From Melampsora larici-populina 98AG31 (Eukaryota > Basidiomycota > Pucciniomycetes > Pucciniales > Melampsoraceae), in assembly GCF_000204055.1 (NCBI RefSeq), contig NW_006768795.1:596951-660950 (forward strand): 64,000 nt of DNA. The letters are read 5' to 3'. Below are positions 13,428 through 48,019 of this stretch, one piece after another (within the stretch, counting starts at the first letter, position 1; the number at the start of each line of letters is the position of its first letter). Under the pieces are notes generated by a model that worked only from the letters and a program-made list of their open reading frames with translations, was not told the origin of the DNA and searched no databases. A program made the position numbers and the translations under genes.

Positions 13428-13438
13428 AAAAAGGGGGA
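13428..13438 (+). other. Polypurine tract of element A
   Basis: AAAAAGGGGGA lies three bases before the 3' LTR, the expected site for priming plus-strand DNA synthesis. Confidence 0.8.
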
Positions 13439-13441
13439 TAC

Positions 13442-14881: not shown

Positions 14882-15116
14882 GATGTGATACAGTGTGATG
14901 TTGTTTGTCGGTATGACACTTGTCGGCCATCAGACCATCCGCCATGACTCATGTTACAACACGGGATTTGGAAAACAAAAATCCATGTCGATGTGTGTCG
15001 GTATGAGTCATGTCGTACGGTTTTTGGCTTGGCGATGAATTTTGACTCAACATGACATGGAAAAATTACATGTTTAACCCATGTCATGTTTATATGTCGG
15101 TATGAGTCTATACGTA
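14882..15116 (-). repeat. Right inverted arm of the large TIR element
   Basis: Reverse-complement partner of 6670-6896 with the same internal order of GACTCATACCGACA-like words. Confidence 0.7.
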
Positions 15117-25258: not shown

Positions 25259-25270
25259 CTTCATTGGGAG
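25259..25270. repeat. Target-site duplication of the LINE, left copy
   Basis: CTTCATTGGGAG here is repeated exactly at 47901-47912, directly after the poly-A tail of the LINE. The pair fixes both ends of the element. Confidence 0.9.
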
Positions 25271-25455
25271 ACGATAGCGAGGTGCCAAGTGATCGTACAG
25301 ATTTTTTCTCCTGATCACGTGACCTGTTCCGTGACTGCGCAAGCACACATCCAAATTTCGTCCTCTCATTCTCAACAACTTTTTTCACCTTTTTCATCAA
25401 CCCTTTTCCTCTCTAGTTCTTCATCCACTTATCGTTTTCAGTTTTCGTTCGGTGG

Positions 25456-27009
25456 ATGCCTTTCTCGAGGGTTTTAGGCCTCAGGGACGGGGTGAATACC
25501 CCAACCCCGAACCCCCAGTCGCAGATCGAGCCTGGTGAAGTTAGTGACGCTAACATGACCAGGCTGGACTCGATTGGGATCACCCAGCTACCCAACACGC
25601 CGCGAACTAACCGAGTTTGCGACTTAGTGGGTGAATCGATTGTAGGCAAAGGAAACCTACCACAACTGTTGGGGGAGCTCAAGCTCAAGCTTCAAGAGCT
25701 AGCTCCCTCCAAGCCTGGCAGATCGACTGTCTCCTCTTTGGCCCCGACGGGTTTAAGCCAAGCAGGTCCGGTCAACTTCCTGTGCGACAGAGCTGGTTTC
25801 CAAAACGTCCAAACGTTGGTGGAATTCTGTCACCGTATAGCTGTTTCGCAAGAAACAACCCAACCAACCCGTGCGCCGGAAGCGCTCATGGCAGGCGTCC
25901 ACGCTAGCATCCAGGAAATGGAAGCTGTTATAGCGGAACAAGCCGCAAACCTTGCGGACCAAGCCGCCAATCTCGAATCCACGATCAAGAGGCTGCAGGA
26001 GAATGCAGAGAAACAGCAGACCTCCTTTGCCAACGCAGCTAAGGCAGGCCTCAATCAACAAACCCAGCCGGCCCAACAGAAGGGCCCAAAACCACCAAAG
26101 CAGCAGCTCCAGCCACCACCCCGTGCCCTCCCATACCTCACCTTGGCTCAAGCCTCGCGTGATGGCAAAGAGGAGCTCGAGACAGATCCCCAGGACCTGT
26201 CCAAACGGCTCAATCGCGCCCTAGCTTGCGTCAACCCAGCCAACCCACCGACCATCAGAGGCCATAGGCGTATACACCGAACCGGCGAATTGATAGTGCA
26301 ATTCCGCAACGAGGAAGAAGCCGATAAGGCTCAAGCACAGGCGGACACGTGGATCCAAGTCTTTAACCCCAGGCTTAGATTGAAAACTAAACTGTACACC
26401 ATCATGGTACACGGAATTCCAACTTCCTTCGACACCAATGACAGAGAACAGGTTATTAACTTTGTCAAAGAAAACAACGGCCTAATCGACTCAGTCGAAA
26501 GCGTTAGGTGGGCCAACGCTCACTCACTAGCGATCGCAAAACCCTTTTCATCCTTGTTTCTTAGCCTATCCGATCCAGAGGAGGCAAACAACGCCATCTT
26601 CAACAAAATCAGCTTCAACGGAGAGCTTAAAACCACGGAGCGCTCCAAGAGAGCAGAAGGAACAACTCAATGCTTCTCGTGCCAAAGTTACGGACACGTA
26701 CAAGCTAAATGCCCTAACAAACCTCGCTGTGCAACATGCACAGGCGATCACGCCACCACCGCTTGTACCTCTCGCCAAAAGCCGGGAACAGCTCTTTGTA
26801 TTAATTGTATAGACAAACATATTGCAATGAAAAGAGAAACCGTTCCATCCTATGCTACAACTAACATCACTCAAGATGAGATGACCAACTTTGCACACTC
26901 CTCCCTAGCCTCAAACTGCCCCATTCGCCGAGCACGCACTGCTCCATCTCGTAACCGAGACTTCTTCCCGGTTACGAAGAAGAACAACACCACCCATGCC
27001 GTCCGTTAG
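25456..27009 (+). CDS. LINE ORF1, gag-like RNA-binding protein
   Basis: 517 residues from an ATG at 25456. LINE ORF1 proteins bind the element RNA to form the transposition particle. A central coiled coil is visible (repeats of Gln, Ala and Asn around EAVIAEQAANLADQAANLES), followed by a Pro/Gln-rich linker. Two zinc knuckles lie in the C-terminal third: CFSCQSYGHVQAKC and then a cysteine/histidine cluster CATCTGDHATTAC. An RRM-like region probably precedes them (around LYTIMVHGIPTSFD). The stop at 27007-27009 overlaps the start of ORF2 by 14 nt. The role is clear; the exact subfamily is not. Confidence 0.9.
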   Translation: MPFSRVLGLRDGVNTPTPNPQSQIEPGEVSDANMTRLDSIGITQLPNTPRTNRVCDLVGESIVGKGNLPQLLGELKLKLQELAPSKPGRSTVSSLAPTGLSQAGPVNFLCDRAGFQNVQTLVEFCHRIAVSQETTQPTRAPEALMAGVHASIQEMEAVIAEQAANLADQAANLESTIKRLQENAEKQQTSFANAAKAGLNQQTQPAQQKGPKPPKQQLQPPPRALPYLTLAQASRDGKEELETDPQDLSKRLNRALACVNPANPPTIRGHRRIHRTGELIVQFRNEEEADKAQAQADTWIQVFNPRLRLKTKLYTIMVHGIPTSFDTNDREQVINFVKENNGLIDSVESVRWANAHSLAIAKPFSSLFLSLSDPEEANNAIFNKISFNGELKTTERSKRAEGTTQCFSCQSYGHVQAKCPNKPRCATCTGDHATTACTSRQKPGTALCINCIDKHIAMKRETVPSYATTNITQDEMTNFAHSSLASNCPIRRARTAPSRNRDFFPVTKKNNTTHAVR

Positions 27010-29697
27010 TACAACGGAAGGCAGGGCAATCAGAGATCCGCTCAGGATCCTGCAACTCAATGTACATAGATCGGAGAAAGTGATGCTTTCTCTTTTCAAC
27101 TCTTCTACCACACGCTTATTTCATTTTTTATTAATTCAAGAGCCGCACCTAAACTGGGCTTCCCATCTCCCCATGTCTGACCCGAACTGGCATGTTATCC
27201 CCCCCCTTATGAACTCTGCTCCCACCCTGGAAGGTGACACGCGCATTAAAAGCGTCGTTTATGTTAATAATCAACTCCCAAGCCATTCCTTTTCTCCTAT
27301 TTCCACAAACTCAGCCCTTATTGCAGGGGTTGCTTTAGCACTCCCGCTCCCCCATCCTCCTATCAATCTCATTTCTGCCTACTTACCTCCGGGTCAGGCC
27401 CAAACAATGGAACCGTTAGGCCCCATTCTTGAGAACCTGCGCCCTAATCCTGTCCTGCTGGGCATGGACTCTAATCTCCACCACCAGATGTGGAACCCCA
27501 GGGGGTACTCCCACGTTCATCGTGAGGCGGATGGACTCATCTCCCTCATGAACTCGGCCGGCCTGCTTCTCCGTTCTGAAGCAGGCGTTCCCACTTTCAC
27601 AGCTAGTAACGCACAAAACAGCCAAACCACAGTCGACCTGCAGTGGCTCTCGCCCGAGTGCTACGATTGGGCGACAGTGTGTAAAACAGACTCATCCTTT
27701 GAACATTCCCACTTTTCAGATCACATGGCGATCGTCACGGAACTGGACCTCCCAGCAAGCCCATTAGACGACTACTCACCGCGACCCAGGCCAAACTGGG
27801 CTAAAACAGATTGGGAAAAATACCAATCGGTTCTGGGGACCGCCTTACGACCCCTTCAAAACGACCTCCAACCTCTGACCTCCCAAGAGGCTATAGACAA
27901 GCTGACAGACGACATTACGTCGGCAATCGACAAAGCCGTCTCAGAATCAACCCCGATGCTGAAAATCACGCAGCGCTCCCGGCGCTGGTGGAACGCTGGA
28001 ACTCTCAACCCCTTTAAGGGACACGCGAACAATCTGCGCCGCGTAGCCCAACGCTCCGGACAGCGGACTGACCGAGTAGCTTTCCGAGCGGCTCAGCACA
28101 AGTTCCAAACTGCCTGCAAAGAGGCCAAAGTCAACCACTGGCGCTCGTTCTTGGCTAATCTGACAGCCAAAGACCTATTCACAGCAGCAAACTACACCAA
28201 TGGACCCACAGCTTCACGTACTCTGCCGCCGCTAAGGAAGCAGAACGGCGATTTGACAAGCGCACCGGACGAACAAGCCGACCTCTTGTTCCAGGCAACA
28301 GGGGGCCCAACCATCCCCTGCGATCTTGCTGACACAACTGATCTCCCTGATAGAGAACCAGCCCCTCTGCTGTTTTCCACACAGGAAATTCTAGCCTCGA
28401 TTGACAGACTCAAAATAGGCAAAGCGCCTGGAGCTGACGGAATCACGAACGCAACGATTAAGAAGGCCCCGAAATCACTCGCCGACCTACTAACACACCT
28501 CCTTAATGCCTGCCTAATAACGGGCTTCTACCCAAGGCTGTGGAAAACCGCTAACACAATAATTCTGAAAAAGCCTGGGAAGCCAGACTACACTAACCCG
28601 TCCGCGTACAGACCTATCGCCTTACTAAGCTGTCTCAGCAAAGTCTTGGAGGCTACGATTGCTGCACGAATGCAGGAATACGCGGAGGCCAACCAAATTC
28701 TCCCAGAAGGCCACTACGGCGGGAGAGCCAAACGTTCCACTACTGATGCTCTGCTTAACTTGACAGTCTGGACCAAGAACCAGTGGGCCAAAGGCAATAT
28801 AGTTGGCACGCTATTTGTCGACGTAAAAGCCGCTTTCCCAACCGTCAACCCTACTAGACTTTGCCACACCCTAAACGAAATGGGTTTCAGTCCCAGCCTC
28901 ACACAACTCATGACTAACTTCCTCAGCAGCAGATCAACGACCTTCCAACTGGGAGATTACCAATCAGAACCGAAGCAGCTCACCATAGGGCTCCCGCAGG
29001 GTTCACCACTTTCGGTGATCCTGTACATCTTGTACAATTCACCGCTCCTCAGACAACCTGATGGAGTGCCCAACACGATCTCCCTGGGATTCATCGACGA
29101 CGTGGCATTCGCCACCGCCCGACCCACGCTGGAGGAAGTAACTGAACAACTCCAGGCCCTGGCAAACAAGGAACTCGAATGGGGCAGTCGCTACGGCGCT
29201 GCCTTTGACCGAGCCAAAAGCCAATGGATGGTGTTATCACACAAGAAACCACCTACTATCGCCCCGTCGATCAATCTGGGAGATGTAGAACTCACCCCTC
29301 AGCCGCTCATCAAGTGGCTGGGCGTACTAATTGATCCTAAACTTCGCTTCTCAGCTCACATCTCTTCACAGGTTGCGAAGGGTATAACGGTTGCAAATCG
29401 TCTAGCAGGCCTAGCCAGAACTGGCTGGGGCATACCGCTGAAACAATGCACACAGCTAACGTCTTCGCTAATCCACTCGAGAGTGGACTATGCCAGTGTG
29501 GTTTGGCACACCTTTGGAAAATCCACAGGTCCGGCCAGCAAGCTCCAACGTGTCGATAACATTGCGATGCGTTTTGCCTTGGGAACTTTTCGAACGCACC
29601 CCACCCCATTCCTCCGCCACGACACCAACTCGCCACCCGTCTATGCAAGACTCGATGCCAAGTCAGACACCGCCATCCTGAGGCTGCTAGAACTGCC
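26996..29697 (+). CDS. LINE ORF2, 5' part: endonuclease and reverse transcriptase
   Basis: ORF2 nicks target DNA and copies the RNA at the nick. This part starts with the ATG at 26996 and is cut at 29697 by element B; the frame resumes at 45735. Endonuclease motifs in order: LQLNVHRS, LLIQEPHL, LLGMDSNLHH and HFSDHMAIV, supplying the usual Asn, Glu, Asp and His. The reverse transcriptase follows with KAPGADGITN, the block around SAYRPIALLSCLSKVLE, VDVKAAFPTV, GLPQGSPLSV and the catalytic FIDDVAFA. Ile replaces the more common Ala in the F-A-D-D box. Beyond the LTR boundary the open frame continues a few codons (SPEPYS-stop) into LTR sequence, which is not native. With the 3' part the protein would be 1,354 residues. 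Confidence 0.93.
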
Positions 29698-30642
29698 TGT
29701 CAGCCCCGAGCCCTATAGCTAGTACCAAAGGGCTGAAATATAATAATAAAATAATAAAAATAATACTTACAACTCATGGCTCAGTTTCAAGAGCCAATTA
29801 CATATGAAATTACATATAGTTACATATGTAATGACATGTGTAGGTACAAGTAGATCAATACGAGAGATTACACGAAGTAATATAACCTTTCACAAGGCTT
29901 ATCACATGAGCAACACAAGAGTTACGCATGTGTGTAATAAATGTAATAATTAAATAATTAAAATATGATTACATACTACAAAAGAGTATGTAATCCAACC
30001 ACAAGTTGTGCGCAAGGGATTTTCTGGGTTATGAGTATATAAAGAGCTCTCCCACCCGCCAGGAAAGTCCATCATCATCATTACATATCATCAAATTATC
30101 AGTAAACATCATCAATCAGATAAATAAGAGTCCTTGTCCTCTTTTATTAGACATTGTATATTTCTCTAATTGATCATTGCTTTTGTTATTTGTAGAAGTT
30201 CTTTTGAAGACTTCTTTCAGGAGGTGATCCTTGCAGTACTGCTCAAGTTATTAAGGGAATTCAATAACTTGAGAAACTCTAAATTCACGGGAGTTCCTCT
30301 GTGTTCAGAGTTTAAAGAACTTTAAATATCACTAGGTGATATTTCCCTTGTTTAATAAACTCTAGAGTAGAGTGTTATTAGCTTGGGCACGAAACTAGAC
30401 TGTAGTTTCTACTTTTATTCCTGCTAGAAGACTCCTGTCTTGCATTAATTCCCGGAGTGATATCCAAAACCCTTTGTTAAAAGGTCAATTAACTGAAGTC
30501 AGTGCTGATTTGATCACACTACTTCATTAATTACTTTGTTTTAGAACTTTAAACAAAGATCTCACGCGCTCAACAAACTTAGTTTGTTAAGCAAACCTTA
30601 TTCTTAGTGTTTTACTAGCCCAAAAGACGCTAGTAGCTCACA
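29698..30642 (+). repeat. 5' LTR of element B
   Basis: 945 bp with TG...CA ends, matching 44785-45729 almost base for base. It contains a TATA-like motif at 30036 and several short inverted pairs of the type ACATATGT. Confidence 0.96.
30036..30043 (+). promoter_or_regulatory. TATA-like promoter motif in the 5' LTR of element B
   Basis: TATATAAA sits in the middle of the LTR. The same motif is at 45123-45130 in the 3' LTR. It is a plausible RNA polymerase II core element for the element transcript. Confidence 0.55.
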
Positions 30643-32300
30643 ATTTGGGGGCCTCATCGTGTTTTTGAACCCTTTATATTTTTTTTTGAGTTGTTATCTC
30701 ATCTTTTTATTTTATAAAAACATTAAAAACAAAAACATATCAGTTTTATTTTATATCTACATTTTTTTTGACCTGTTTTACTTGAAAACTGAGTGAGCTC
30801 AGCATTTTTCAAAATCAGGAGAATAGGTTGGAGGAAAGAAATAAATCATTTCCCCCCTCCAATTTTCGCATTTTTTTTTATTTTTTTTAATTTTCCAATT
30901 GTTTGGATCATCAGTTGATCCAGTACACTTGAATTACATATTCAAAAGTGTTGTGTTGCATAAACAAACACCTGTAAGCCACCTTTTTGATATTGTAATT
31001 GGCCTGCACGCGCCAATTACAATTACATATACAGTCAGGTGACTTGTATACATATACACCAGTAATTCCAACAAGCCCCGCGCGTGGTCCGACAGCCACA
31101 ACGCTACAATACTCTACTGCACTTTGAAATTCAAGATCTCGAAGGCTGCAGCTCAGCAACCCTCAACCCACACCTCACTCAATCAACGATCACGCCGTCT
31201 ATTCGACATCACTGTCGAATCCTTTCGAACTCGCAGTCGGTGTTGATTGTTCCACGAGTTGTGGCTTCCCGCTACGAACTCCAGGAGCATTTGTCCCGCT
31301 TCAAAAGCCGCCACACCCCGTACACTCCCTCGATCACGCGGATCAAACACCTCATACTCTCATTTTTGATCACGACGATCAAGACCAAATCGCATCACTT
31401 CAAAAACCTCAATTGAAAGGTGTTGTTTAGAATACCATCGTTGAGAAGTAAGTAATATTATAATTGAATCAGTTTCAATTTAAAACAATTTTAAATAATA
31501 AACTTAATTCGTTGTTTATTTTATTTTTTTTATTGGTGTTTTATATTAGAATCGATTATAGATAGATCTTTCTTATATCAACGGTCAAAACTACCTTCGA
31601 TCGATTATCTACAAACCAAGTTTTACTCGGGTTTGGAGTAGAGCATTTTCTACGATTTAACATTGACCAGATTTCTTTTCAAGTTATCATTTGAATCATT
31701 ATCTTCTTCTAAAAAGAGTAAGCTCTTAGATTTTTTTTTCGGAAAGTTTTAAGACTAGTAGAAATCAATAGAAAACTTACCAAGTACCTTTTTGGTTCAA
31801 TAATTTTTTTTTCCTTCGGCGATTTAGTTCAGTCTTGATTTAGCAAGAACAAAGCTTACACCCAGTAACTCACTACTTTAGTTTTGACAAAAGTAAGTAA
31901 GTAATACATACCTGGTCAATCGTCCCGAATTGAAAGTAAAATCTTTAAAATTTTTAGTCTCCGTCTGAACCAATTGACCTAGACCGTTTATTTTCGCAAT
32001 CGATCTTTTATCTTGACTTTCTTATACTCGACTCTTGATAGTGAGTACTTGAAATCTTTCCACATCTATCAAGAGAAAAGGAGAATACTTACAATAGCAT
32101 TATATTTTAGTTCAGTCAATCTTTTCGAATCAACTTACTCTCTGTTTACCAGACTCGTTGAGATAATAAAAGTTTTAGAACTTTAAAAGTAAGTATCTTA
32201 GTTGGCTAATCTTGTTCTTGATCTTATTTGAGCCTTGTCAATATCTAGAAACTGACAAGTTTCATTACTTGTTGTTTCTTGTTTTTGTTTTCATCCTCTT
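30643..32300 (+). other. Long leader of element B
   Basis: About 1.7 kb of AT-rich DNA between the 5' LTR and the first convincing coding exon. It has homopolymer T and A tracts and many GTAAGT-like donors (for example near 31448 and 31893), suggesting that the leader is spliced. The frame at 31084-31416 (110 codons) shows no domain. A leader this long is unusual for Ty3 elements. Confidence 0.5.
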
Positions 32301-33406
32301 CTTCAAGTGGAAGGAGAGGGAATTCAACTAGAACTCCCCGAGATCGAATCAGCCGATCTCGAAGGTACTGGACCAAAATTCCAATCGGTTTCGCAACGAA
32401 TCACGGATCGAAGCGACACCGAATCACGCCGATCAGCGTCACCTACGCTGTACGCCGAGTCCATCTTTCCAGGAACAACCCCTGGCAGATCACCTGAGCG
32501 ATTCCAGAGCGATCGCCCAGCTGAACTCCCGCGTCATAGTACCGCGAACAACCCGACGTTCGTCTATACCACAGCGCGCTTCTCGACTCCACGTAAGTGA
32601 TACTTACAGATTTTTTTTTTCTCTCTATCTCTATCAATCTTCCCTTGTCTAGACAATGTCTGACAAAAGATCATCGTCTGCTCGTAGCCGGACCGAACCC
32701 AGCCGCTACGGGAACCTCGTCAAGGACGGAGGACGTACCGATGGCCGAAAGATCGAACCAAAGGCCGGACCGTCCAGAGAGCGAAAGGGCTCCCGTGGAA
32801 GCAGCAAGAGCTCCACAGGAGCCTCGCATGCCGGTAAGTCCCTCACTACTCCACCACCTCATATGCCAGGCAGCTTACCAACGTCGTCTTTGATTCCAGA
32901 CGACGGAGCAACTGGCAGCCGAGGCCAAGTACAACAAGCTTTGGCAGAAGCTCAAGCTAGCGTACTTGGAGTGGGAGGTAGCTCGAGCCAAGGACGACTC
33001 GGACCCGGTCAAGCTCCGACTTTGCAAGGAGTCGATCTTCAGGGCTTGCAAGACCTGGAAGGCCCTGATCGACAATCACAAACAGAACGACTTGTCGATT
33101 CAAAAGTGGCTCCAGTTTTATTTCAGGAACGGAACCAAGAGTTGGAATCCAAACGACATGTCGATTCAAGGCTTTTTCTTGAGGAGCGAGGAGCCTCAAG
33201 CTCAGGTGGGTACCTCTCAGCCTCAAGCGACCATGGAGGACCGACCCCAAAAGCGCTCCAAGCACTTCCACAACGACAATCGTCACCGAGCGGAACCCGA
33301 CGATGCGAGAGCCTACGTGAGGGCCCAAGTCATGATGGGTCAAACCCTCCTTCAAGAGGAGGGTTCCAACAACTCCAATCGGCGCCGCGGCAAGTACAAT
33401 CGTTGA
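32301..33406 (+). CDS. Extra spliced ORF of element B, overlapping the gag frame
   Basis: Three exons are proposed: about 32301-32592, 32688-32833 and 32900-33406, with introns 32593-32687 and 32834-32899 (GTAAGT...GTAG and GTAAGT...CAG). Splicing joins frames smoothly. The third exon reads like a genuine globular protein: EQLAAEAKYNKLWQKLKLAY, EWEVARAKDDSDPVKLRLC, NDLSIQKWLQFYFRNGTKSW, and a basic tail RRRGKYNR before the stop. I do not recognise the family. The Trp/Lys/Glu-rich helical character and position suggest a structural or gag-associated protein. The same DNA from 32656 is also open in the gag-pol frame for 750 nt, so one of the two frames may be incidental. The start of exon 1 is unknown, since no ATG was fixed. 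Confidence 0.5.
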
Positions 33407-33780
33407 GGCAAGTAAAAAAAGAACAAGTAAGTCTTTTGAATACTCAAGAAAGATCTCTCATTCATAAGTTTTCTGAACTAACTAAGAATGATTTTGCTTT
33501 ACCTATGTTAGATGAGATGGCTAAGAACTTCAAACAAGTTCTTATCAGATTTGATGAATTAGATAAGGTTGACAGAATTTTTGAAGATCATTTTTTGACT
33601 AGTAGCTCTAATATGGAACAAATTTTTAATAAAGTTGATTTAATTTCTCAGTTAAGTAGAAAGTATATCCAGAATACTTATGAAGTAGTTGATAAATTAG
33701 ATAAGAAAATTTTTAGTGAAGGCTCTCCTTTCATTTCTGCTTTAGATTCTTTCAAAAGATTTTTAAATGAAAATAAAAAA
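32656..33780 (+). CDS. Element B gag-pol, 5' part (cut by the MULE)
   Basis: Open from the ATG at 32656 (MSDKRSSSARSRTEPS) to the MULE at 33781. The last 120 codons are the clearest coding part, rich in Lys, Asp and Phe (FSELTKNDFALPMLDEMAKN and similar) and probably coiled coil. The first 250 codons share DNA with the extra spliced ORF and are Ser/Gly/Gln-rich, so the true start of gag could lie later or be reached by splicing. Without the MULE, the frame runs from here straight into 39438, because the 9-bp duplication (AATAAAAAA, residues N-K-K) is in frame. The joined length would be about 2,146 residues. Confidence 0.65.
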
Positions 33781-33824
33781 GGATTTCACTATTTAACGCC
33801 CGCAAAAAAAAACCCCAAAGCCCC
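33781..33824 (+). repeat. Left terminal inverted repeat of the MULE
   Basis: Pairs with the reverse complement of 39385-39428. The shared outer 23 bases are perfect; the A-tract and following CCC(C/G)AAGCCCC differ slightly. Confidence 0.9.
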
Positions 33825-34211
33825 CTTTCATATCGGGTAATTCCAAAAACTTTGAGCCAAAACAAAGTTACACAAACTTATTTGGACCTGAAAGCCCCAT
33901 TCCAAGCGCCTTTATTTGCCCTAACAGCCCCCATCCACAATGAGAGGGCTGTCCACCCCTCAAACCGGGCTATGAATCCACATAGCAGGGCTGCAAAAAG
34001 AGCTTCCGCCCCCCAAGCCCAGAGCAAGAGGGGGATTGGGTCATGAAGCACAACGCACAACGAAGAAGTTCCCGTAAGGATACTCTACCGAGGGCCAATG
34101 GCCCGTCTGTATCACGGACTCAAACCTTGAGAACCCCAGCCACAACCCCAAAGCCTCCTCCATCTACAATCACAGTTTGTGATTCAACAAACAAGTCACG
34201 CGAACCATATA

Positions 34212-37135
34212 ATGGCCCCCACACAACTGCCCACCCAAATAACACCACAACAACCGGCAATACCCCAAGATCACCCTATTCCCACTCCACAAATAACACC
34301 ACAACAACCGGCGATAAACCAAGATCACCCTATTCCCACACCATGCATACAACAGCCAATACCACCATACTTGTATCCACCACCCGTTTTCTATCCAACT
34401 TACAATCCACCACCTCTTAATCCATTCCATCTGATGAATGGAAATCCTCAAAGTGTTTCATCTCACTTGTACCCTCCTCACTTTCAGATTCCTAGTAGTT
34501 CACCATCATCTCAGCAGTTTTCATTCAATGCTCCCCAATATCCGTTTCATCCGTTCTATATGAACCATCCGATACCGCACTTGACATCTTTCCCTTTACC
34601 ACCACATCCCTCATCGATACCCACTACTATGGAACCTCCAGTTTTGTCTATTCCCACCACATCGACTACTCCTATTTCCATTCCCGTAACATCAAACACC
34701 AGATCAACCAACATAACCACGACTCCGACTGTGATTTCCATTCCCACGACGTCAACCAACGCGTCTTCTTCAACTGACCTAACCACCACATCTGCTATCA
34801 TAACTACACAATCGAGTTTAACCAACAAAATTGACACAACTCCTGATCCTATTACGTTGTCTTCTTCAACTCAACCAACTCAAAACACAACTTCTACAAC
34901 CAATACAAACAATCCAAATCTCGATGGTGTTGTTGAAGACGAAGATGGTGTTGTAGAAGAATTTCTCAAAGAGCGAGATGAAGACTGGCCACCAATTGGT
35001 GCGTATCTCATTGTTTGATTTGTAGAGTTTTCCCAATTGATAGCTGATGATGTGGTGGTTATTTACTAGGGGCTGCACCGATACGATTACTGGAGTCACC
35101 TAAAGTTGGCAAACGGTTTTTCGAGATGGCCAACGGTCTCATGTACCTGAAGGCTGTTGCACGACATCAAGGATATGCCTTGGCCGTAAAGAGCCATAAA
35201 ACCAAACATGAGCGAACCCTTCGAATCTACCTCCGATGTTCACTTGGTCACGTCGTTCCATCTGTAGCTAAGGAGCGCTCAACTTCTACAAAGAAGACCA
35301 ACTGTGGCTTTGAAATCTCACTCAATTACCGAGGAAAATCAAACCAATGGTTTGTGCATCAGGACAGCAAAAGCCCCACCAAACTTGTACATAATCACCC
35401 TCCGTTTGAAAAACCTCACGACCTGGCCGTCTATCGTCGATTTACACCCGAGATGGAAGCAGAAATCAACTTACTTTATGCTGCTGGATGTCGTGCTCGT
35501 CAGATCCGATCTTTACTCGCTGTCGAACCTGGTTGTGAACCGCTCTTGCGTGACATCCACAACATCCGTGCTCGACATAGGGATCGATGGTTGAATGGTA
35601 GAACACCTATTCAGGGGCTCTTTGACTTGATATCGGGTCACAACTGGGCATTCCGAACTCTCACCGCACCCAATGGAGCTCTCCAAAACCTTTTCTTCGC
35701 CAGCCCAGATGCCATTCGCTTAGCTTGAAGATTTCCTACTGTTCTTGGCTTAGATTGTACTTACAAGACAAATCGGTTTAATCTTCCACTTCTACATATA
35801 GTCGGTACAACCAATACACATAAGTCTTTCACCGTGGCTTTGTGTTTCTTGCATGAAGAAACTGAAATGAATTACGAATGGGCTATGAATCAATTGAAAA
35901 GTGTTGTTTTCGATTCGACGGAAGAAGGCGTCCCAATCCGTTTACCACAAACCTTTGTAACCGATGCCGAGCCCGCCCTTTTCAATGCTATCAATACCGT
36001 ATTTCCTGATTCCGGTCACCTGTTGTGCGTATGGCACATCAACCACAATATCGCCAAAAACTGCAAGAAGAAGTTCAGTGATCATGACTGGAAAGAGTTC
36101 TTAAAGATTTGGAACTCCTTTATAGCTTCTTCGACACAAGAAGACTATGATTCGAACCTCAAGAAAGTCACCGATATCGCACAGAAGCACCAAATTTTTG
36201 ATTACCTTAAACGTACATGGCTCAATAGGACCGAAAAATTCGTTTCCCTCTTCACTTCCAAAAATCACCACTTCGGTAACTCTTCTACTTCACGAGTTGA
36301 GGGCAGCCACTTCCGACTCAAACAGTTTCTCGAAGGCCGCAATAATGATTTTGTGACTTGTTTCAATGCTTTCAAGCAAGCCGGCGATCAACAGATCAGC
36401 GAAATCAAGGTGTCCACGGGTATTGAGATGACAAAAACCCTTCAAGGCCTTCCACCTTTTTTCAAGAATGTTTCGGGTGTAGTTTCTCACTTTGCAATCA
36501 CGAAAATGAAGAGCCAATATGATCTATTACCTCAATCACTCAATAGGCCTTGTACAGGAACCTTTCGTGGGGCTTGGGGGCTTCCGTGCTCTCACAATAT
36601 CGGAAAGGCTAGAGACGAAACTGACTACTTATCGCCAAATCTCTGTCATGACCAGTGGAAACTCGCCATGGACATCGCACCCGAAACTCACAACGCGCTT
36701 AAGGTGGCCGCTCAATCCAAATTTGCTTTACTTTCAGAGCTACCTGAACACACTCTCCAAAGATTGTATGAAGACATTTCCCGATTGGAAACTGGAAGAT
36801 ACTCTCTTGTACCCATCTTATTGGCCGAAGTCAAAGTTAATAATCGTGGCCGACCTTCCAACAGCCAGAAACGAAAAGTTGAAATGTCTCAAACCTCTCC
36901 ATCTACTGAGAAACCGAAACACAAAACCCAAAAGTTGCACGTGGGTCAGCAGGGCCGATGGATTTCAGATTTTGAGGCCAAAGAAACCCAAAAGGGTAAG
37001 GAGGCGGCTAAGGAGGCTAAAAAGCTCGCTACCAAGGCGTCTACAAATGTTAAAAGGCCTGCTAATGTGGTGCGGGTGAAGAAATGCAGCCATTGCAAAA
37101 CTCCCGGTCACCAAATAAACACCTGTCCGAATTGA
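34212..37135 (+). pseudogene. MULE transposase with FAR1-like DNA-binding domain, one in-frame TGA
   Basis: Two exons: 34212-34998 and 35070-37135, joined at PPIG/AAPIRLLESP. Exon 1 is Pro/Thr/Gln-rich and contains two 18-residue repeats (QITPQQPAIPQDHPIPTP). Exon 2 begins with a FAR1/WRKY-GCM1-type zinc domain (YLRCSLGHVV, TNCGFEISL, HNHPPFE). The MULE catalytic core follows: LGLDCTYKT (first Asp), FVTDAEPALF (second Asp), LCVWHINHNI (the C/W-H motif) and RVEGSHFRLKQFL (Glu). A CCHC knuckle, CSHCKTPGHQINTC, closes it. A TGA at 35726-35728 sits where the flanking sequence continues in frame (AIRLA-stop-RFPTVLGLD); the simplest origin is CGA to TGA. The next frame (37136 on) is directly in phase after a TGA at 37133. 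Confidence 0.85.
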
Positions 37136-38917: not shown

Positions 38918-39384
38918 TGATTTCCTTCCCCCGCTTTGAATGAAATCGATACCTTTGTTGTTCCCTCTTGTTTTCCCTGTTTCTCTTTCTATATGTTCTC
39001 TGCTTGCTACATACATGAAGTAATACATTGTTTTCCCTCTTGTTTTCCCTCTTTTTCTGCTCTCTCTGCTTACTCATACATGGAGTAATACATAACATAA
39101 CTAGCTGTTGGAAATCGGTCACTCTCACTTATCTTAGTCTAGTGTTCTCTGATTTCTCTTTGTTCTGGCTGTCAGTTTGAAATTACATACATGAAAACAT
39201 ACAAAGTGAGATATTTACACACGCACACGCACAACGCAAAATCACAAAAAGTTTGAACGAAGTCGAACTCGAACTCGGAAAGTTCAAACAGAGGTTTCAA
39301 AAAGTTTGAAAAAGTTTGAAAAAGTTTGAAAAAGTTTTGCAAAGGGGCTGTGGAAAACGTACAGCCCCCTGTCATTTTCAAAAA
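38918..39384. other. 3' subterminal region of the MULE
   Basis: Non-coding. It includes imperfect direct copies of a TGTTTTCCCTCTTGTTTTCC-type unit near 38955-39060 and the four-copy AAAAAGTTTGA array near 39295-39340. Subterminal repeats of this type often serve as transposase binding sites. Confidence 0.5.
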
Positions 39385-39428
39385 GGGGCTTCGGGTTTTT
39401 TTTTTGCGGGCGTTAAATAGTGAAATCC
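39385..39428 (-). repeat. Right terminal inverted repeat of the MULE
   Basis: Reverse-complement partner of 33781-33824, followed by AATAAAAAA, the duplicated target. Confidence 0.9.
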
Positions 39429-39437
39429 AATAAAAAA

Positions 39438-42400
39438 TTGTCTGTTTCCAATTCTTTTACCAAGTTGTCTCCAATGCCAAATGAAAAAGTTTCTTCTACT
39501 GTCCCAAACTTTGAGAGTACAGAGCCAAATAGTGAGAATAATAAAGTCTTTATGACTATTTTGAAAGATATGAATGAGCAACTATCTGAGTCAATAGAAA
39601 ATATCTTGAGTAAGAAATTTGACACTTTAGAGAAAGAATTGACAACTCTCAGTAACATTCTTGAAGAAAATCAGAAATTAGCTTTTGATGAAAAAGAACA
39701 ATTTGAGAACGTACAGAGAGTTCAATCCAGTAATATTGAGAATATTATAATCAAGCAAACTGAACAAGAGAAGTATTTAGACTCAAGGTTTAACAAACTT
39801 GAACAAATGATTATTGATATGAACAACAATAACCATAAAGACAAAACTTCCCTTGTGGAAGAGTTTCATCAACTTCAAGAGTCCACTCGAGCAGGTCCTA
39901 AAGTTGAATCTTTAGTGAATAACTTCGAAAGACTGAGAATGTCCAATCGAAGTATGCAGAGAGATCATAGACCTCCCTCACGGATGGTACCTCCGCATAT
40001 GCAGAACTTGAATGAAAGTGAAACCTCACCTATTCAAGATAGAAACAGGGTCCAGTATAATGAACAGAGTTTTGTAACTGAAAGGCCTCCACGTAGAGAG
40101 AGTTCAATTGTAGAACTTCAAACTACTGAAGCTTTACAAGCTGCAGCACTGAGAAAAGAAGTTTTACGAAACTTTCCCAATGTTAAAGACTGGCCCGAGT
40201 TTAACGGTGAAGGTGAATATAACCACCAAGAATTCATTGACTGGGTGGATCAGGTACGGACTACTATGAATCCACCAGATGTTTTAATAACATCTAAATT
40301 ACCTTTGGTTTTCAAAGGAACAGCTAGACAATGGATTTTAGCCGTAATAAAAGAAAACGCCCCATATAATAAAACATGGGACAAATGGAAAGAAGCCATT
40401 CAGTCCAGATTTGGAAATGCTCAGTGGAAGAATAAAATGGAAAGAGCATTCATGGCGGATTATTTTAAACTTGAAAATGCTCATGAATGTGTTCAATGGG
40501 CTAACAAACAACTTGTACGAATCACGGCATTTCAACCTGAAGCTACTAGTAGTGAAATGGTAGACAAACTGTTGTGGAGAGTTCCAGCCGCTATTAGAAT
40601 TCCGGTGAGAAACAGGATTGGTGTAGATGGTAAATGGACTGCATTCATTCTTGCATTTGAGGAGATCAGCAAGGATATTCCTCAACCTAAGAAGTCCTTA
40701 CCATTTAAGAATACCTTTGTCCGGAATAATGATACTGCAAAACAAAGCAGTAGTACAAAAGTACAAGCTCCTACAAGTTTTAGAAAGACTGCTAGAGCAT
40801 GTAATAACTGTGGTAGTACAGATCCAACTCATGTCTGGAAAACATGCAAAGGGAAAGGCAAAGCCATCAACAATGTTGACGCTGAAGGGGTAGAAGAAGA
40901 AGAAGACTACACTTCCTATAACATTAATGAATATGAAGATAGTGATGAAGAAAAAGAGACAGAGTTGGCCACAGCAGTGGATGCAATTGAAAGTAACTTT
41001 GAGCCAGAGGTTAGCATTGCACAGCTACACTCTGAAGCAGAATTGCCTCTCATTACATCTCCAAGAGAAGGAAATGTGAGAATAAGTGACGCAAAACTGC
41101 TGAAGTGCCGACCAGCTGCGGGTAAGGCCCATGCCATTGGTTATCATAGTTTGACAAGAGTGATAGTTAATGACCAAGACGCAGAAGCACTTTTAGACAG
41201 TGGTGCATCTTGTTCAGTGGTGGGGAGTCAATATCTCACCACTTTATTACCAGACTGGAAATTGAGAATGGTTCCCTGTGAAAATAACATAAAATTCACA
41301 GGGTGTGGTGGAAGTTTATTTCCTTTAGGTGTAATTTCTTTGAAACTTGTTTTTCCGCACCCGCAAGAATCAGTCAGGATTGATGCTGAATTTGTAGTTA
41401 TGGAAAACTCACATACCAAATATCTCATAATAGGAGATGAGTTTTTATCCATGTATGGAATAGATATTTTTCATAGTAAAGATAAATACTTCACATTTGG
41501 AAATGATGTCAAGAAAAAGAAATTTGGACTTCCAATTCAAAGACCAAAGTTGACAGGACTTGTCTTTAAAAAACAAGAAGATGTAGAAACTCCGCAAGAT
41601 GAGAGAATTCCTGCAATTGAACCGGTTAATGCAACTCCACCATTAATGGAGAATATCAAAGAAGCCAAGTTTAGTCCCAAGCTCACAGAGAAACAACATG
41701 AACAAATTGTCAGATTGATTGTCAAATCCAAAGACCAATTTGGGTTAGGTGATAGCCCACTAGGAACAATTGACAAACACAAAGTGAGTATTCAATTGAG
41801 TATTGAAAAACCATACCCACCTATATTGCGGAAAGCAGCTTATCCAGCTAGTCCTAGGAATAGAGTGGAGATTGAAAAGCATCTTGATGAATTATTGAAA
41901 CTTGGTGTAATTCGTAAAGTTGGAGAATCAGAGGAAGTCGACATTACTACACCAGTAATCATTGCATGGCACAATGGAAAGTCTAGACTGTGTGGTGACT
42001 TCAGAGCACTGAACACATATACATTACCTGATAGATACCCCTTACCAAGATGTGACCATGTGCTGATCAATCTTGGTAAGGCAGTATACATCACAACTAT
42101 GGATGTATTCAAAGGTTTCCATCAAAATGTTATAGACGAGGCATGCAGAAATTTTTTCAGAATTATCTGCCATATGGGTATCTTTGAATATCTGAAGATG
42201 CCCTTTGGAATCAAGAATGCACCGGCTTTCTTTCAAAGGATGATGGATATAGAATTCAGCAAAGAACTGCGAGAAGGATGGTTAAAAATCTTCATTGATG
42301 ATATTATCATATTCCATGATAACTGGGAGGACCATGTCAAAGCTATTGAAAAAGTTTTGATTGAAGTTAAGGCTATGGGGATGACAATTTCTTTGAAGAA

Positions 42401-44753
42401 AAGCAATTTTGGTTTCCATGAAGTCCGAGCACTAGGGCATTTAGTATCCAGACTATGGATTGCAATTGACCAAAACAAGACAGCAGCAGTGTTGCAAAAA
42501 CCTCCACCACAAGGCATCAAAGACATGCAAAGCTTCTTGGGGTTTGCTAGCTATTATAGAAATTTTTTAGAAAATTATGGTAAAGTTGCAAATTGCCTGT
42601 ATAAATTGTTTGCCAAAGGTGTTTCCTTTGAAATGACCGCTGAAAGAATTCATGCATGGAAAAAGATACGAAATATGATTACCACAGCACCAGTTTTATT
42701 GCAACCGGATTTCACTAAACCGTTCAAATTGTATGTTGACGCATCATTTGAAGGTCTAGGTGCTGCATTGCATCAAGTACAAATTATTGATGGTAAATCC
42801 AGGGAAGGCCCGGTTGTATTCATATCCAGGCAGCTCAAAGACAGTGAAACCAGATATGGTTCACCACAATTAGAAGCACTCGCATTAGTTTGGGCATTGG
42901 AAAAGTTACACTACTACTTAGATGGCGTGTACTTTGAAGTGATTACTGATTGTACAGGAGTGAGATCTTTGATGAACATCAAAACTCCAAATAGACACAT
43001 GTTAAGATGGATGTTGGCTATTCAAGAATATCGTCCATACATGACTATTACACATAGACCAGGTAAAATGCATAACAACGCAGATGGTCTCAGCAGAATG
43101 GCTTTGCCAAATGATAGCAGTAATCCTGCGTGGGATCCAGAAGACGCAGAGATAGACATCCCCGTCATGGGATTAAGTTTGGCAGAACTCAGCACTGAGT
43201 TCTTTGAAGAAATCAAAGAGAGCTATAATACTAATGTGAATACAACCAAGTTAGTATCAATGATGTCCAAAGACAAAGCTAATTTAAGTCTAGCAAGTAG
43301 TCTTGAGTCACCATGGAAAGAATTGTATGCAGAAGGGAAATTCTCATTACAATCCGGACTTTTATACTTCAGAGAGAAGCATAGCTCAGTAGTTGTTCTT
43401 GTTTCAGAAAAACACATTGAACAAATACTGCAGACATGTCATGATGAATTTCTATCTGGACATATGGGGGTGGACAGGACTCTAGAAAGAGTGAGTACCA
43501 CAGCTTGGTGGTTTCAGTGGAAATTGGACACGGAGAAATACGTCAGTAGCTGTGACAGATGCCAAAAAGCAAACAAAGCTACAGGAAAAAGGTATGGTCT
43601 CCTACAGAGTATTGAGAAACCTACATATCCTTGGCAAGTAATTAACATGGACTTTGTCACAGCATTACCACCAGGTGGCAGAGACAACTACAACTCCGCT
43701 TTAGTTGTTGTAGACCGATTTTCAAGACGAGTGAGATTTTTGCTGTGCTACAAAGAATCTTCAGCAATGGATATTGCTCTACTCTTCTGGGAAAGACTCA
43801 TTAGTGACGTAGGATTACCAAGGGTCATAATCAGTGACAGAGATCCTAAATTCACATCTGAATTTTGGAAAAGCCTGTTTGAAATCATGGGAACAAAATT
43901 AGCTTTCTCAACAGCATACCACCCGCAAACAGACGGTTTGGCGGAAAGATGTATCCAAACATTTGAAGAAATGTTAAGGAAATTCTGTGCTTTTGGTCTT
44001 GAATTTAAGGATAAAGATGGGTATACGCATGACTGGACAACCTTATTGCCAGCATTAGAAATTGCATACAACACCAGTGTTCACAGTTCTACCAACAAAA
44101 CACCTTTTGAGATAGAAAGAGGTTTTTGCCCTAGGTTACCTAAAGACAAATTTAAGAGTAGAGATGTAGAAATTCACCCAACTTCTCTAAGTTTTGCCAC
44201 AATGATAACAAGAGCAAGAGAATTTGCAAATCAATGCATCAAAGAAGCAGAAGAATACAATAAAGAAAGGTGGGATAAAACTCATAAGGAGCCAAACTTC
44301 AAAGTTGGAGATCAAGTCCTGTTATCAACAGTGAATTTCAACAACATACAAGGGCCAAAGAAATTAAGGGACCCTTTTGTTGGACCGTTTGTCATATCCA
44401 AGCTTGTGGGACCCAATGCAGTGGAACTGATATTGCACGGAGAACTAGAAAGAAAGCATCCAGTCTTTCCAGTATCATTAATAAAGAAATACAATGATCC
44501 AACAAGAGACAAGTTCCACAGAAAGACCAAAGTGATAATTCCACCCTTTGAACCAGAAAAAGAAAAGCAGTTTCTTAAAATTCTTCGAGATAAAAGAGTG
44601 AAGAATAAAGACAATAAAGACGAAGTCCTATACCTGGTAAGGTACAAGAGTCATGGAGCAGACTCAGATGAATGGTTACCAGCGGACAAAGTCCCTAACT
44701 CCAAAGTAAATCTTCGAGCTTTTCGAGCAGCAAGGAGAGATCATACTCAATGA
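39438..44753 (+). CDS. Element B gag-pol, 3' part (capsid, protease, RT, RNase H, integrase)
   Basis: This continues the frame cut at 33780; the native protein resumes at LSVSNSFTKL. Counting from 39420, a coiled coil comes first (to about 180), then a capsid-like domain (WPEFNGEGEYNHQEFIDWVD, about 265) and a zinc-knuckle variant CNNCGSTDPTHVWKTC near 460. The protease has LLDSGASCSVVG near 590. The reverse transcriptase has TTMDVFKGFHQ and the catalytic FIDDIIIF near 957. RNase H follows (LYVDASFEGLGAAL). The integrase has an HHCC region near 1340-1382 (SGHMGVDRT ... CDRCQKA), INMDFVTALP, ISDRDPKFTS and DGLAERCIQTFEEML. The tail YLVRYKSHGADSDEWLPADK is chromodomain-like. There is no stop in 1,772 codons, and gag and pol share one frame. 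Confidence 0.93.
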   Translation: MSVSNSFTKLSPMPNEKVSSTVPNFESTEPNSENNKVFMTILKDMNEQLSESIENILSKKFDTLEKELTTLSNILEENQKLAFDEKEQFENVQRVQSSNIENIIIKQTEQEKYLDSRFNKLEQMIIDMNNNNHKDKTSLVEEFHQLQESTRAGPKVESLVNNFERLRMSNRSMQRDHRPPSRMVPPHMQNLNESETSPIQDRNRVQYNEQSFVTERPPRRESSIVELQTTEALQAAALRKEVLRNFPNVKDWPEFNGEGEYNHQEFIDWVDQVRTTMNPPDVLITSKLPLVFKGTARQWILAVIKENAPYNKTWDKWKEAIQSRFGNAQWKNKMERAFMADYFKLENAHECVQWANKQLVRITAFQPEATSSEMVDKLLWRVPAAIRIPVRNRIGVDGKWTAFILAFEEISKDIPQPKKSLPFKNTFVRNNDTAKQSSSTKVQAPTSFRKTARACNNCGSTDPTHVWKTCKGKGKAINNVDAEGVEEEEDYTSYNINEYEDSDEEKETELATAVDAIESNFEPEVSIAQLHSEAELPLITSPREGNVRISDAKLLKCRPAAGKAHAIGYHSLTRVIVNDQDAEALLDSGASCSVVGSQYLTTLLPDWKLRMVPCENNIKFTGCGGSLFPLGVISLKLVFPHPQESVRIDAEFVVMENSHTKYLIIGDEFLSMYGIDIFHSKDKYFTFGNDVKKKKFGLPIQRPKLTGLVFKKQEDVETPQDERIPAIEPVNATPPLMENIKEAKFSPKLTEKQHEQIVRLIVKSKDQFGLGDSPLGTIDKHKVSIQLSIEKPYPPILRKAAYPASPRNRVEIEKHLDELLKLGVIRKVGESEEVDITTPVIIAWHNGKSRLCGDFRALNTYTLPDRYPLPRCDHVLINLGKAVYITTMDVFKGFHQNVIDEACRNFFRIICHMGIFEYLKMPFGIKNAPAFFQRMMDIEFSKELREGWLKIFIDDIIIFHDNWEDHVKAIEKVLIEVKAMGMTISLKKSNFGFHEVRALGHLVSRLWIAIDQNKTAAVLQKPPPQGIKDMQSFLGFASYYRNFLENYGKVANCLYKLFAKGVSFEMTAERIHAWKKIRNMITTAPVLLQPDFTKPFKLYVDASFEGLGAALHQVQIIDGKSREGPVVFISRQLKDSETRYGSPQLEALALVWALEKLHYYLDGVYFEVITDCTGVRSLMNIKTPNRHMLRWMLAIQEYRPYMTITHRPGKMHNNADGLSRMALPNDSSNPAWDPEDAEIDIPVMGLSLAELSTEFFEEIKESYNTNVNTTKLVSMMSKDKANLSLASSLESPWKELYAEGKFSLQSGLLYFREKHSSVVVLVSEKHIEQILQTCHDEFLSGHMGVDRTLERVSTTAWWFQWKLDTEKYVSSCDRCQKANKATGKRYGLLQSIEKPTYPWQVINMDFVTALPPGGRDNYNSALVVVDRFSRRVRFLLCYKESSAMDIALLFWERLISDVGLPRVIISDRDPKFTSEFWKSLFEIMGTKLAFSTAYHPQTDGLAERCIQTFEEMLRKFCAFGLEFKDKDGYTHDWTTLLPALEIAYNTSVHSSTNKTPFEIERGFCPRLPKDKFKSRDVEIHPTSLSFATMITRAREFANQCIKEAEEYNKERWDKTHKEPNFKVGDQVLLSTVNFNNIQGPKKLRDPFVGPFVISKLVGPNAVELILHGELERKHPVFPVSLIKKYNDPTRDKFHRKTKVIIPPFEPEKEKQFLKILRDKRVKNKDNKDEVLYLVRYKSHGADSDEWLPADKVPNSKVNLRAFRAARRDHTQ

Positions 44754-44784
44754 AAATAGTATGACCTCCTTTGGTGGTGGGGAA

Positions 44785-45729
44785 TGTCAGCCCCGAGCCC
44801 TATAGCTAGTACCAAAGGGCTGAAATATAATAATAAAATAATAAAAATAATACTTACAACTCATGGCTCAGTTTCAAGAGCCAATTACATATGAAATTAC
44901 ATATAGTTACATATGTAATGACATATGTAGGTACAAGTAGATCAATACGAGAGATTACACGAAGTAATATAACCTTTCACAAGGCTTATCACATGAGCAA
45001 CACAAGAGTTACGCATGTGTGTAATAAATGTAATAATTAAATAATTAAAATATGATTACATACTACAAAAGAGTATGTAATCCAACCACAAGTTGTGCGC
45101 AAGGGATTTTCTGGGTTATGAGTATATAAAGAGCTCTCCCACCCGCCAGGAAAGTCCATCATCATCATTACATATCATCAAATTATCAGTAAACATCATC
45201 AATCAGATAAATAAGAGTCCTTGTCCTCTTTTATTAGACATTGTATATTTCTCTAATTGATCATTGCTTTTGTTATTTGTAGAAGTTCTTTTGAAGACTT
45301 CTTTCAGGAGGTGATCCTTGCAGTACTGCTCAAGTTATTAAGGGAATTCAATAACTTGAGAAACTCTAAATTCACGGGAGTTCCTCTGTGTTCAGAGTTT
45401 AAAGAACTTTAAATATCACTAGGTGATATTTCCCTTGTTTAATAAACTCTAGAGTAGAGTGTTATTAGCTTGGGCACGAAACTAGACTGTAGTTTCTACT
45501 TTTATTCCTGCTAGAAGACTCCTGTCTTGCATTAATTCCCGGAGTGATATCCAAAACCCTTTGTTAAAAGGTCAATTAACTGAAGTCAGTGCTGATTTGA
45601 TCACACTACTTCATTAATTACTTTGTTTTAGAACTTTAAACAAAGATCTCACGCGCTCAACAAACTTAGTTTGTTAAGCAAACCTTATTCTTAGTGTTTT
45701 ACTAGCCCAAAAGACGCTAGTAGCTCACA
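44785..45729 (+). repeat. 3' LTR of element B
   Basis: 945 bp, nearly identical to 29698-30642, followed by the CTGCC duplication that rejoins LINE ORF2. Confidence 0.96.
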
Positions 45730-45734
45730 CTGCC

Positions 45735-47097
45735 GGACACAAACCCGGCTGCCAAATTGGTCAAAGCCGTCTTCAAACGGAATCGCAAGACTCACAAATC
45801 CTCCATTCACACAGCGTTAGCTCACCCAGACAGCATCTGCAAGGCCCTACCGCGCCTACCGGACGTCATTGACCCCCAACAGGCGGGGCTTCCCTCTGAT
45901 GATTGCATCAGCACAAACATTGCCCATGACAAAGACGAAGCTACTAACTTCGCCCAACTGAATACTACTGACCCCCCAGCAGATACAGTTGCCTCATTTA
46001 GTGACGGCTCCCTCATCCCTGGTAAAGGGGTGGGAGCCGCGGCCATCCTCTTCAACTTTGACCTTCCGGCTTCATCGAAGACCCTTTGCCTGAGGGTGGG
46101 GAACGCTGACGAAACCACCCCTTATCAAGCTGAACTCACAGGTCTCGAACTGGCAGTTGCCAACACTAGGAAGACAGCACCGCAAAGCACGAAATACTTT
46201 TGGTTCTTTACTGACAACCAACGTATTATCCGCGAAATGACCGAACCCCTCAAACTCCTACCTGGCTTCTTGTCCTGCGTGCGAATTTGTCGGGGCCTTT
46301 CACGCCTTCTAGAATCTTTCCCACAAGCAACCATCTCCCTCATCTGGTGTCCCTCAAATTCAGGTCTACCGGGAACAGTCCTAGCTGACGCGGCGGCGAA
46401 AGCCGCCACTGAACTCCCACAGATAATCGATTGCCCACCCTGCACGACGACGTTCAAGAAGAAGATCAAAGACAAATTAGTGGACGCGGCCAACATCGCC
46501 CCGACAAACCAGGCGCTCACCCGCATGATGGGAGTCTTTGACCCAGGAGGAACGTTCAAGGCTCTCTGCAAGCTTAGTTGTCCCGCCGCCACCTTCATCA
46601 CTCAACTCCGAGCGGGGCATTGCCCCTTGAATGACTACCTGTTCCGCTTCACAAAAGCGGATACACCCAACTGCGCCTTGTGTACTCAGCGGGAATCTGT
46701 CGAGCATTTCCTCCTCACCTGTAGGAAGTTCGCAGGTATCCGTCGAGACCTGTCGAAAGCAGCGCGGGCCAACAAGACTCCTTTTCACCAAAAAGACCTA
46801 CTAACCACTCCCTCCGCTTTCGAGGCCCTCTCGGTATTTTGTCGTATGTCCTTTAGGTTCCATCGATCTAGGTACAAATCCATCGCTCCGCCACAACAAA
46901 TCATGCAATCCTCAGTCCCTCGACCCAAACCAAACCGCCGCCGCCCCAAGACTGCGCCTTGCAGGCGCCAAACCACTAACCGGACAGCTACCAGGCCAAC
47001 ACCCGCGAGGCCACCTCCCAGACTCGCTACTCCGCCTCTCCCGGACGACGACGAATCGCGGAGCCATAACTTTTTCGCACTTCCATCACTCCTGTAA
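45735..47097 (+). CDS. LINE ORF2, 3' part: RNase H and C-terminal zinc region
   Basis: The frame cut at 29697 resumes here: two bases before the insertion plus the first base here complete a Pro codon (ELP/DTNPAAK). The RNase H domain has all four acidic positions: ASFSDGSLIPGKG, YQAELTGLEL, FFTDNQRII and LADAAAK. A C-terminal CCHC-type motif, CALCTQRESVEHFLLTC, is typical of LINE ORF2 ends. The tail is basic and Pro-rich. The first ATG-like codons in this part are internal and should not be taken as a start. Together with 26996-29697 it gives a continuous 1,354-residue protein. Confidence 0.93.
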
Positions 47098-47900
47098 TAC
47101 TTCGAAGCTTCTCATATTCTCGACACCCTCCCCTTCGACATCAAGTCTTCAAGCCCTCCCCTTTCCCACCTCCAACCTCCATCGATTCTCACCCTTGTTT
47201 CATCCCCAACCTCGACAACCAGTTCCGACCAACCGACTCAAATCAATTCAAACACAACCCAACTCACCTCAAATCATCTCACCTCAACCTCATCCTAACT
47301 CGACCAAATCAACTCTTCTTTACAACTTTCTCTCTTCTCGAAAACCAATTTCTCTCTTTCCTCCTTTTTCTCTCACTTTCTCTTATCTCTATTTCTCTTT
47401 GTGTCCGCAGGGAATGGGGCCAGGAATGGGAATAGGGGCGAGCTGAGACAAAGACGACGCAGAGTATTCTCTGTCACAACCTCCACCGACTATAAAGATG
47501 TCTTAACTGACCAACGGGGACATCACCCCGGCGCCTAAGAGTGTTTCCTCCGCACTGGCCATCTGGCGTAGGGAGATTCTGCCAAGTCTACGTCAACGCT
47601 CAACCCTTGATCCGCTACTGCTTAGCTACCTCCCAGACGCCTAGCGTATTATGTCTTTTTCACTTTTTTCTCATCTTTTCCTTTATGTGCTGCTGTTATG
47701 CTTTCTTTCTCCTTTTTGCTTCATATCGCGCAGAGCCGGGTTGACAATTCTCCCAAAGCCACGCAACTATCTTACATATTAGTCCTCATCCCTCAGCGTT
47801 TTAGCTTAAAACTTGTTTTCAGATAGTGTGTTTTTATGCCCTAGGGCCAGGTATCGCACTTTAAATACATTCAATAAAAAAAAAAAAAAAAAAAAAAAAA
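47098..47900 (+). other. LINE 3' untranslated region and poly-A tail
   Basis: About 780 bp of pyrimidine-rich sequence (notably 47310-47410), then CAATAAA leading directly into 25 A residues at 47876-47900. The tail abuts the right target duplication. Confidence 0.85.
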
Positions 47901-47912
47901 CTTCATTGGGAG
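47901..47912. repeat. Target-site duplication of the LINE, right copy
   Basis: CTTCATTGGGAG, identical to 25259-25270. Confidence 0.9.
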
Positions 47913-48019
47913 TTAGAAAGTTTGCACTGAATTCTCAAATACCACAGCAGCTCAAGATATGCACAACCAAAGTGGAAAATCAAGATGTTGATGTCAGAGG
48001 TGATAATGTGCAAATTGAC

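Follow-up and report, generated by a model that had tools for sequence, protein, structure and literature searches.

Three nested transposable elements at one locus

We analyzed a window of 64,000 nucleotides from the genome of Melampsora larici-populina 98AG31 (C31:596951-660950; contig NW_006768795.1 of assembly GCF_000204055.1). The window contains three transposable elements, all on the forward strand and nested one inside another: a Mutator-like element (MULE) within a Ty3-type long terminal repeat (LTR) retrotransposon, which itself lies within a long interspersed nuclear element (LINE). The window was compared with the assembly of the same genome (98,296,301 bases in 243 contigs); C-numbers denote contigs of this assembly, and all relatives described here are from this genome. 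Very probably the nest records three separate insertions at one locus, and the MULE belongs to a truncated lineage of a large family that carries RTC4 and OTU-protease-like domains. The initial annotation had proposed the nest, with separate target duplications of 12, 5 and 9 bp; its coordinates were reproduced, and at each level we found the target as a single copy in relatives.

The outer LINE is 22,630 bp long including its insertions (25271..47900) and ends in 25 A residues. It is flanked by a 12-bp target duplication, CTTCATTGGGAG (25259..25270 and 47901..47912), a sequence that occurs exactly twice in the window as compared to 0.02 expected occurrences. Open reading frame (ORF) 1, measured stop to stop (25417..27009), contains a weak CCHC knuckle (14.9 bits, below the Pfam cut-off of 20.8). 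ORF2 is in two parts. The left part (26996..29697, beginning with the ATG at 26996) encodes the endonuclease (PF14529) and reverse transcriptase (PF00078) in a single frame, and the right part (45735..47097) encodes the C-terminal region, which is uninterrupted in the relatives on C10 and C79. The endonuclease and reverse transcriptase in one frame, the poly-A end and the 12-bp duplication identify the element as a LINE.

The middle element (29698..45729) lies between two copies of a 5-bp target duplication, CTGCC (29693..29697 and 45730..45734), and is bounded by 945-bp LTRs with the ends TGTCAG...CTCACA (29698..30642 and 44785..45729). The left part of its gag-pol frame (32656..33780) is the gag region by position and has no Pfam match reaching cut-off. 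The right part (39438..44753) has Pfam matches to reverse transcriptase, RNase H, the integrase zinc finger and core, and an SH3-like domain. No Pfam gag or aspartic protease domain was found in either piece at an E value of 0.01, and none was convincing in the left piece at an E value of 10. The order of reverse transcriptase, RNase H and integrase, the paired TG...CA LTRs and the short target duplication are those of a Ty3-type element.

The inner MULE (33781..39428) is 5,648 bp long, with 48-bp terminal inverted repeats that differ at 3 positions. It is flanked by a 9-bp target duplication, AATAAAAAA (33772..33780 and 39429..39437); MULE target duplications are typically 8-11 bp. The transposase region (35051..37135) matches PF10551 (E value 7.8e-25; 87.6 bits against a cut-off of 27.6), and a CCHC-like knuckle was recognized by eye. 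The transposase domain, the inverted repeats and the 9-bp duplication together assign the element to the MULEs. Downstream of the transposase is a second frame (37943..38917) with an RTC4 domain at residues 4-74, matched by Pfam, and an OTU-like region at about residues 136-283, recognized by fold matches.

An empty site for each insertion

Removal of 16,037 bases brings the two pieces of the LINE ORF2 into one frame of 1,354 residues from the first ATG, and removal of 5,657 bases does the same for the Ty3 gag-pol, giving 2,146 residues. Both lengths agree with the initial annotation; they come from frame arithmetic, without construction of the joined sequences. The initial annotation had also held that each insertion hit a coding frame. 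This is correct for the Ty3 and MULE insertions, and the coding state of the LINE target is unsupported.

The flanks of the LINE matched one paralogous locus, on C12, that has no LINE. The left-flank match runs through 25270, the right-flank match starts at 47901, and the two overlap by exactly 12 bp, with CTTCATTGGGAG present as a single copy with one mismatch. Identity to this locus is 81-82% in the longer stretches. Other flank matches, on C6, C144 and C33 and a 60-bp match on C12, stop short of the site. At the Ty3 level, both of the other LINE places found have an empty site, with the flanking ORF2 pieces mapping one codon apart. At the MULE level, there were seven other Ty3 places, six of which cover the MULE site, and all six are empty; the remaining match, on C10, spans bases 28-176 of the 500-base query and stops short of the site. 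A query from the right side of the MULE recovered only the window copy and the same six relatives. There were seven matches to AATAAAAAA in the window, compared to 2.29 expected, so by itself this duplication is weak evidence; it is solid because the relatives have empty sites.

The nesting, the separate duplication at each insertion and the empty sites seen in relatives for all three insertions support the order LINE, then Ty3, then MULE, as the initial annotation had it. In the first step, the LINE was copied into the host locus, generating the 12-bp duplication and the poly-A end. The Ty3 element then integrated into the LINE ORF2 with a 5-bp duplication, and finally the MULE entered the gag region of the Ty3, duplicating 9 bp. 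We infer the enzymes acting at each step from the element families.

The initial annotation had considered the last two steps to be recent, and the alignments bear this out. The Ty3 LTRs have 1 difference in 945 positions (95% interval 0.00003 to 0.0059 per site), where about one had been estimated, and the MULE has 4 differences in 5,648 positions from its copy on C1 (interval 0.0002 to 0.0018). Three other Ty3 copies that were compared look older than the window copy, with LTR differences of 7/949 (C8), 13/932 (C94) and 32/942 (C3).

Two other accounts of the nest were weighed against three separate insertions. One, raised in the initial annotation, is that the MULE entered a parent Ty3 element, whose retrotransposition then brought the MULE to this locus. 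The MULE and the Ty3 are on the same strand, retrotransposition leaves the donor in place so that a donor is possible in principle, and the mosaic structure of the Ty3 (see below) suggests recombination among Ty3 RNAs of its family. Against this, every other Ty3 copy spanning the MULE site is empty, and a search of the assembly for the MULE-Ty3 junction pattern, allowing up to 3 mismatches, gave a single occurrence; given these results, travel within a parent is unsupported in this assembly. In addition, the MULE is flanked by a perfect 9-bp duplication of its own, has retained introns (recognized by eye) although it lies in the sense direction, and none of the seven flanks seen at the four other MULE copies is the window Ty3 site (the left flank on C29 was outside this comparison). 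We consider this route highly improbable. We regard as more improbable still an assembly artefact that joined three repeats. All three elements have relatives elsewhere in the genome and the nest is known from the assembly alone, but each level has an exact duplication of a target found once in relatives, and in both interrupted genes the two sides share one frame, which is not expected from a misjoin.

A MULE lineage cut off from its downstream part

The initial annotation was right about the MULE and its duplication. It overlooked three in-frame stops (at 35726, 37133 and 37940) and the RTC4 and OTU-like domains. Besides the window copy there are four close copies: those on C1, C49 and C11 have both ends and each has its own 8-bp target duplication, and the left end of the C29 copy was not found. 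The junctions are A+T-rich at all five MULE sites (at the right side only for C29). Beyond the left end of the C1 copy, at a distance of about 1.1-1.5 kb, there are short matches of 45 and 38 bp to the 3' end of the window Ty3, and this copy may be near a distant Ty3 relative.

The stop at 37133 follows the transposase domain and the stop at 37940 precedes the RTC4-OTU frame. These two stops are common to the window MULE and C1, and are absent from C49, C11 and C29. It follows that at least one of the two copies derives from a source in which both stops were already present. The stop at 35726, before the catalytic domain, is not in C1, C49 or C11 (the C29 match ends short of it), and since C1 lacks it, it arose after the window copy and C1 parted. 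Either of these two copies could be the older, so the window MULE may or may not have been truncated when it arrived in the Ty3.

In C1, the catalytic domain is within an open frame of 694 residues, so this copy could make transposase without the downstream part. From the distribution of the stops, at least one move was made by a MULE already separated from its RTC4-OTU part. More likely, proteins of other copies served as helpers in trans; alternatively, the RTC4-OTU part would be dispensable. A lineage that moved after its separation from this part provides a natural test of its role.

The RTC4 domain of the downstream frame is well supported (PF14474; E value 2.7e-9; 37.7 bits compared to the curated cut-off of 23.7). 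The OTU-like region has fold matches to OTU proteases that are weak but consistent. In the frame, C141 and H272 are invariant in 13 of 13 sequences, and in the fold match, as placed by range-end offsets, they are opposite residues 40 and 151 of a solved viral OTU, which we take to be its catalytic pair. On this weak but consistent evidence, the domain is OTU-protease-like and a putative protease. Profile searches among solved-structure sequences gave nothing convincing, and a search of viral structures gave no match at an E value of 0.001 or better. The first structure model, made with 6 sequences, had a mean pLDDT (predicted local distance difference test score) of 39.6, and another round of profile searching for relatives yielded one additional protein.

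We compared seven RTC4-OTU frames by the ratio of nonsynonymous to synonymous substitution rates (dN/dS). Five of the 21 pairs gave values, about 0.14-0.32, none of which involved the window frame; one of the five had a dS of 2.5, near saturation, and the other 16 pairs gave no value. Where dS is measurable, the frame looks to be under purifying selection.

Most RTC4 domains in the genome lie behind a MULE transposase domain

A large MULE family in this genome carries RTC4 and the OTU-protease-like domain downstream of the transposase. There were 41 DNA-level matches to the MULE (two of them pieces of one copy); for 39 of them, an RTC4 domain follows on the same strand no more than 8 kb downstream. 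The distance is 1,264-2,262 bp in 38 cases and 5,494 bp in one. The genome has 118 RTC4 domains. The search for PF10551 listed 150 of 154 matches and scored 150 of 191 candidates, and pairings with RTC4 are therefore lower bounds. Among the matches listed, at least 91 of the RTC4 domains have PF10551 on the same strand no more than 6 kb upstream, at least 90 of these pairs are spaced by 1.2-3.6 kb, and the two control arrangements, with PF10551 on the opposite strand or on the wrong side, gave 0 and 0.

The 150 listed MULE domains comprise 93 with RTC4 downstream and 57 without it, so there are also MULEs with no detected RTC4. Many of these 57 score identically and begin at position 12 or 13 of the profile, a pattern suggestive of a second MULE group that is young.

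It could be argued that the RTC4 domains near MULEs are host genes whose neighbourhoods are favoured for MULE insertion, rather than parts of the elements. MULE insertion close to genes has been described in the accessible part of PMC6446971, and 27 of the 118 RTC4 places have no upstream PF10551 among the matches listed. The RTC4 frame, however, is between the two terminal inverted repeats of the window MULE and, by coordinates, inside the copies on C1, C49 and C11; these repeats were examined for the window MULE and its close siblings only. Strand and order are constant in all of the paired cases, as against zero in either control, and at least 90 of them are spaced by 1.2-3.6 kb. Insertion beside host genes is thus a very unlikely explanation, and we read RTC4 as part of the element.

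Taken together, the observations can be drawn into a broader proposal, to which we would give an even chance. In both this genome and RTC4-rich rust-like fungi, there would be a large MULE family with RTC4 and an OTU-like protease under purifying selection; the reported RTC4 expansions would for the most part be cargo of transposons, not a telomere or DNA-damage response of the host; and the OTU-like part would be a helper of transposition acting in trans, as the truncated lineage suggests. Counts of the "telomere" gene RTC4 in such genomes may then largely be counts of transposons.

Additional features of the window

The LINE ORF2 is about 80% identical to its relatives to the left of the Ty3 and about 51% identical to the right, which raised the possibility of a chimeric LINE. 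This was rejected: the two relatives diverge from each other to the same degree (77.5% and 51.8%), indicating a fast-evolving region.

The Ty3 leader (30643-32655) is 2 kb long and has four GTAAGT motifs (31448, 31893, 32189 and 32593). Its middle, at 31.2-32.1 kb, aligns with almost no relative (C204 only, in one 300-base window). An additional nested insertion here was considered and rejected: C3 has an unaligned gap of similar length (approximately 0.89 kb against 0.99 kb), so the middle reflects divergence rather than an insert. An upstream coding exon was also considered; the splice tried by eye, at 32593, meets a stop. The Ty3 is a mosaic. Its identity to C160 and C81 is 97-100% in most LTR windows, at 32.7-33.3 kb and from 41.2 kb onward, and 83-89% at 39.4-40.9 kb, with C3 and C204 closer from 39.7 kb on (90-96%). 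This pattern fits template switching between co-packaged RNAs. The relative on C81 (C81:222000-232000) has separate interruptions of about 0.76 kb (gag) and about 1.1 kb (one LTR).

Elsewhere in the window there is a second Ty3 element (7542-13630) with a chromodomain, 189-bp LTRs (97.4% identical) and a CAAAT duplication. It is bracketed by a 173-bp inverted repeat (6679-6851 and 14944-15116; 90% identical) that may mark another element that this Ty3 entered. Adjoining the LINE, at 47980-48585, are two short minus-strand frames, one with a signal-peptide-like start (judged by eye); the nearer of the two is about 80 bp from the end of the LINE. The region is about 81% identical to the C12 paralog and is possibly a secreted-protein gene. 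Rfam and tRNA scans over the window gave zero matches.

Relation to known elements

In plants and fungi, elements commonly insert into older ones, and the nest itself is ordinary; with three element classes and an empty site for each level, it is a tidy case. It has no essential difference from nested insertions elsewhere. Nested insertions and MULEs are described for maize and rice in the accessible part of PMC3903597.

The window Ty3 shares with other Ty3-type LTR retrotransposons the order of reverse transcriptase, RNase H and integrase, the 5-bp duplication and the TG...CA LTR ends. It differs from a typical Ty3 in having no Pfam gag or protease match and a 2-kb leader whose middle is nearly unalignable to relatives.

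RTC4 has been counted before in these fungi. PMC9370660 gives RTC4 protein counts of 45 for Puccinia novopanici and 15 for P. sorghi, and takes the expansion in rust fungi as a host DNA-damage response family; MULE and OTU have no occurrence in its main text, as far as available. Within Pucciniomycotina, PMC12210899 describes MuDR elements in Pucciniales only, and RTC4 does not occur in its accessible part. If RTC4 is mostly transposon cargo, gene-family claims based on it, such as those in the accessible part of PMC9370660, need re-annotation, which is a simple computation. We found no link between RTC4 and transposons in the open-access literature (subscription journals and Repbase were outside this scope), and no MULE with OTU among the matches listed there, at the level of titles and the starts of abstracts. 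The MULE family with RTC4 and an OTU-like domain is a form of a known kind of element, and this form is new as far as the searched literature reaches.

Like other fungal MULEs, the window MULE has a PF10551 transposase, terminal inverted repeats, duplications of 8-9 bp and a CCHC-like knuckle (by eye). PMC6446971 describes a MULE sub-group across plants, Phytophthora, Puccinia and fungi with CCHC, C2H2 and SWIM fingers. Unlike those MULEs, the window MULE has RTC4 and an OTU-like domain, terms that each appear 0 times in the main text of that paper, as far as available. According to the accessible part of PMC2836005, Ulp1 is found in Mutators and OTU in Ginger1 and Helitrons, and a role in transposition has been proposed. 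In all of these, and putatively in the window MULE, a ubiquitin-pathway cysteine protease domain is carried alongside the transposase. In comparison with the Ulp1 Mutators, the window MULE has an OTU-like domain instead of Ulp1, plus RTC4, and it adds an OTU-like case to the question posed there of why unrelated transposons carry ubiquitin-pathway proteases.
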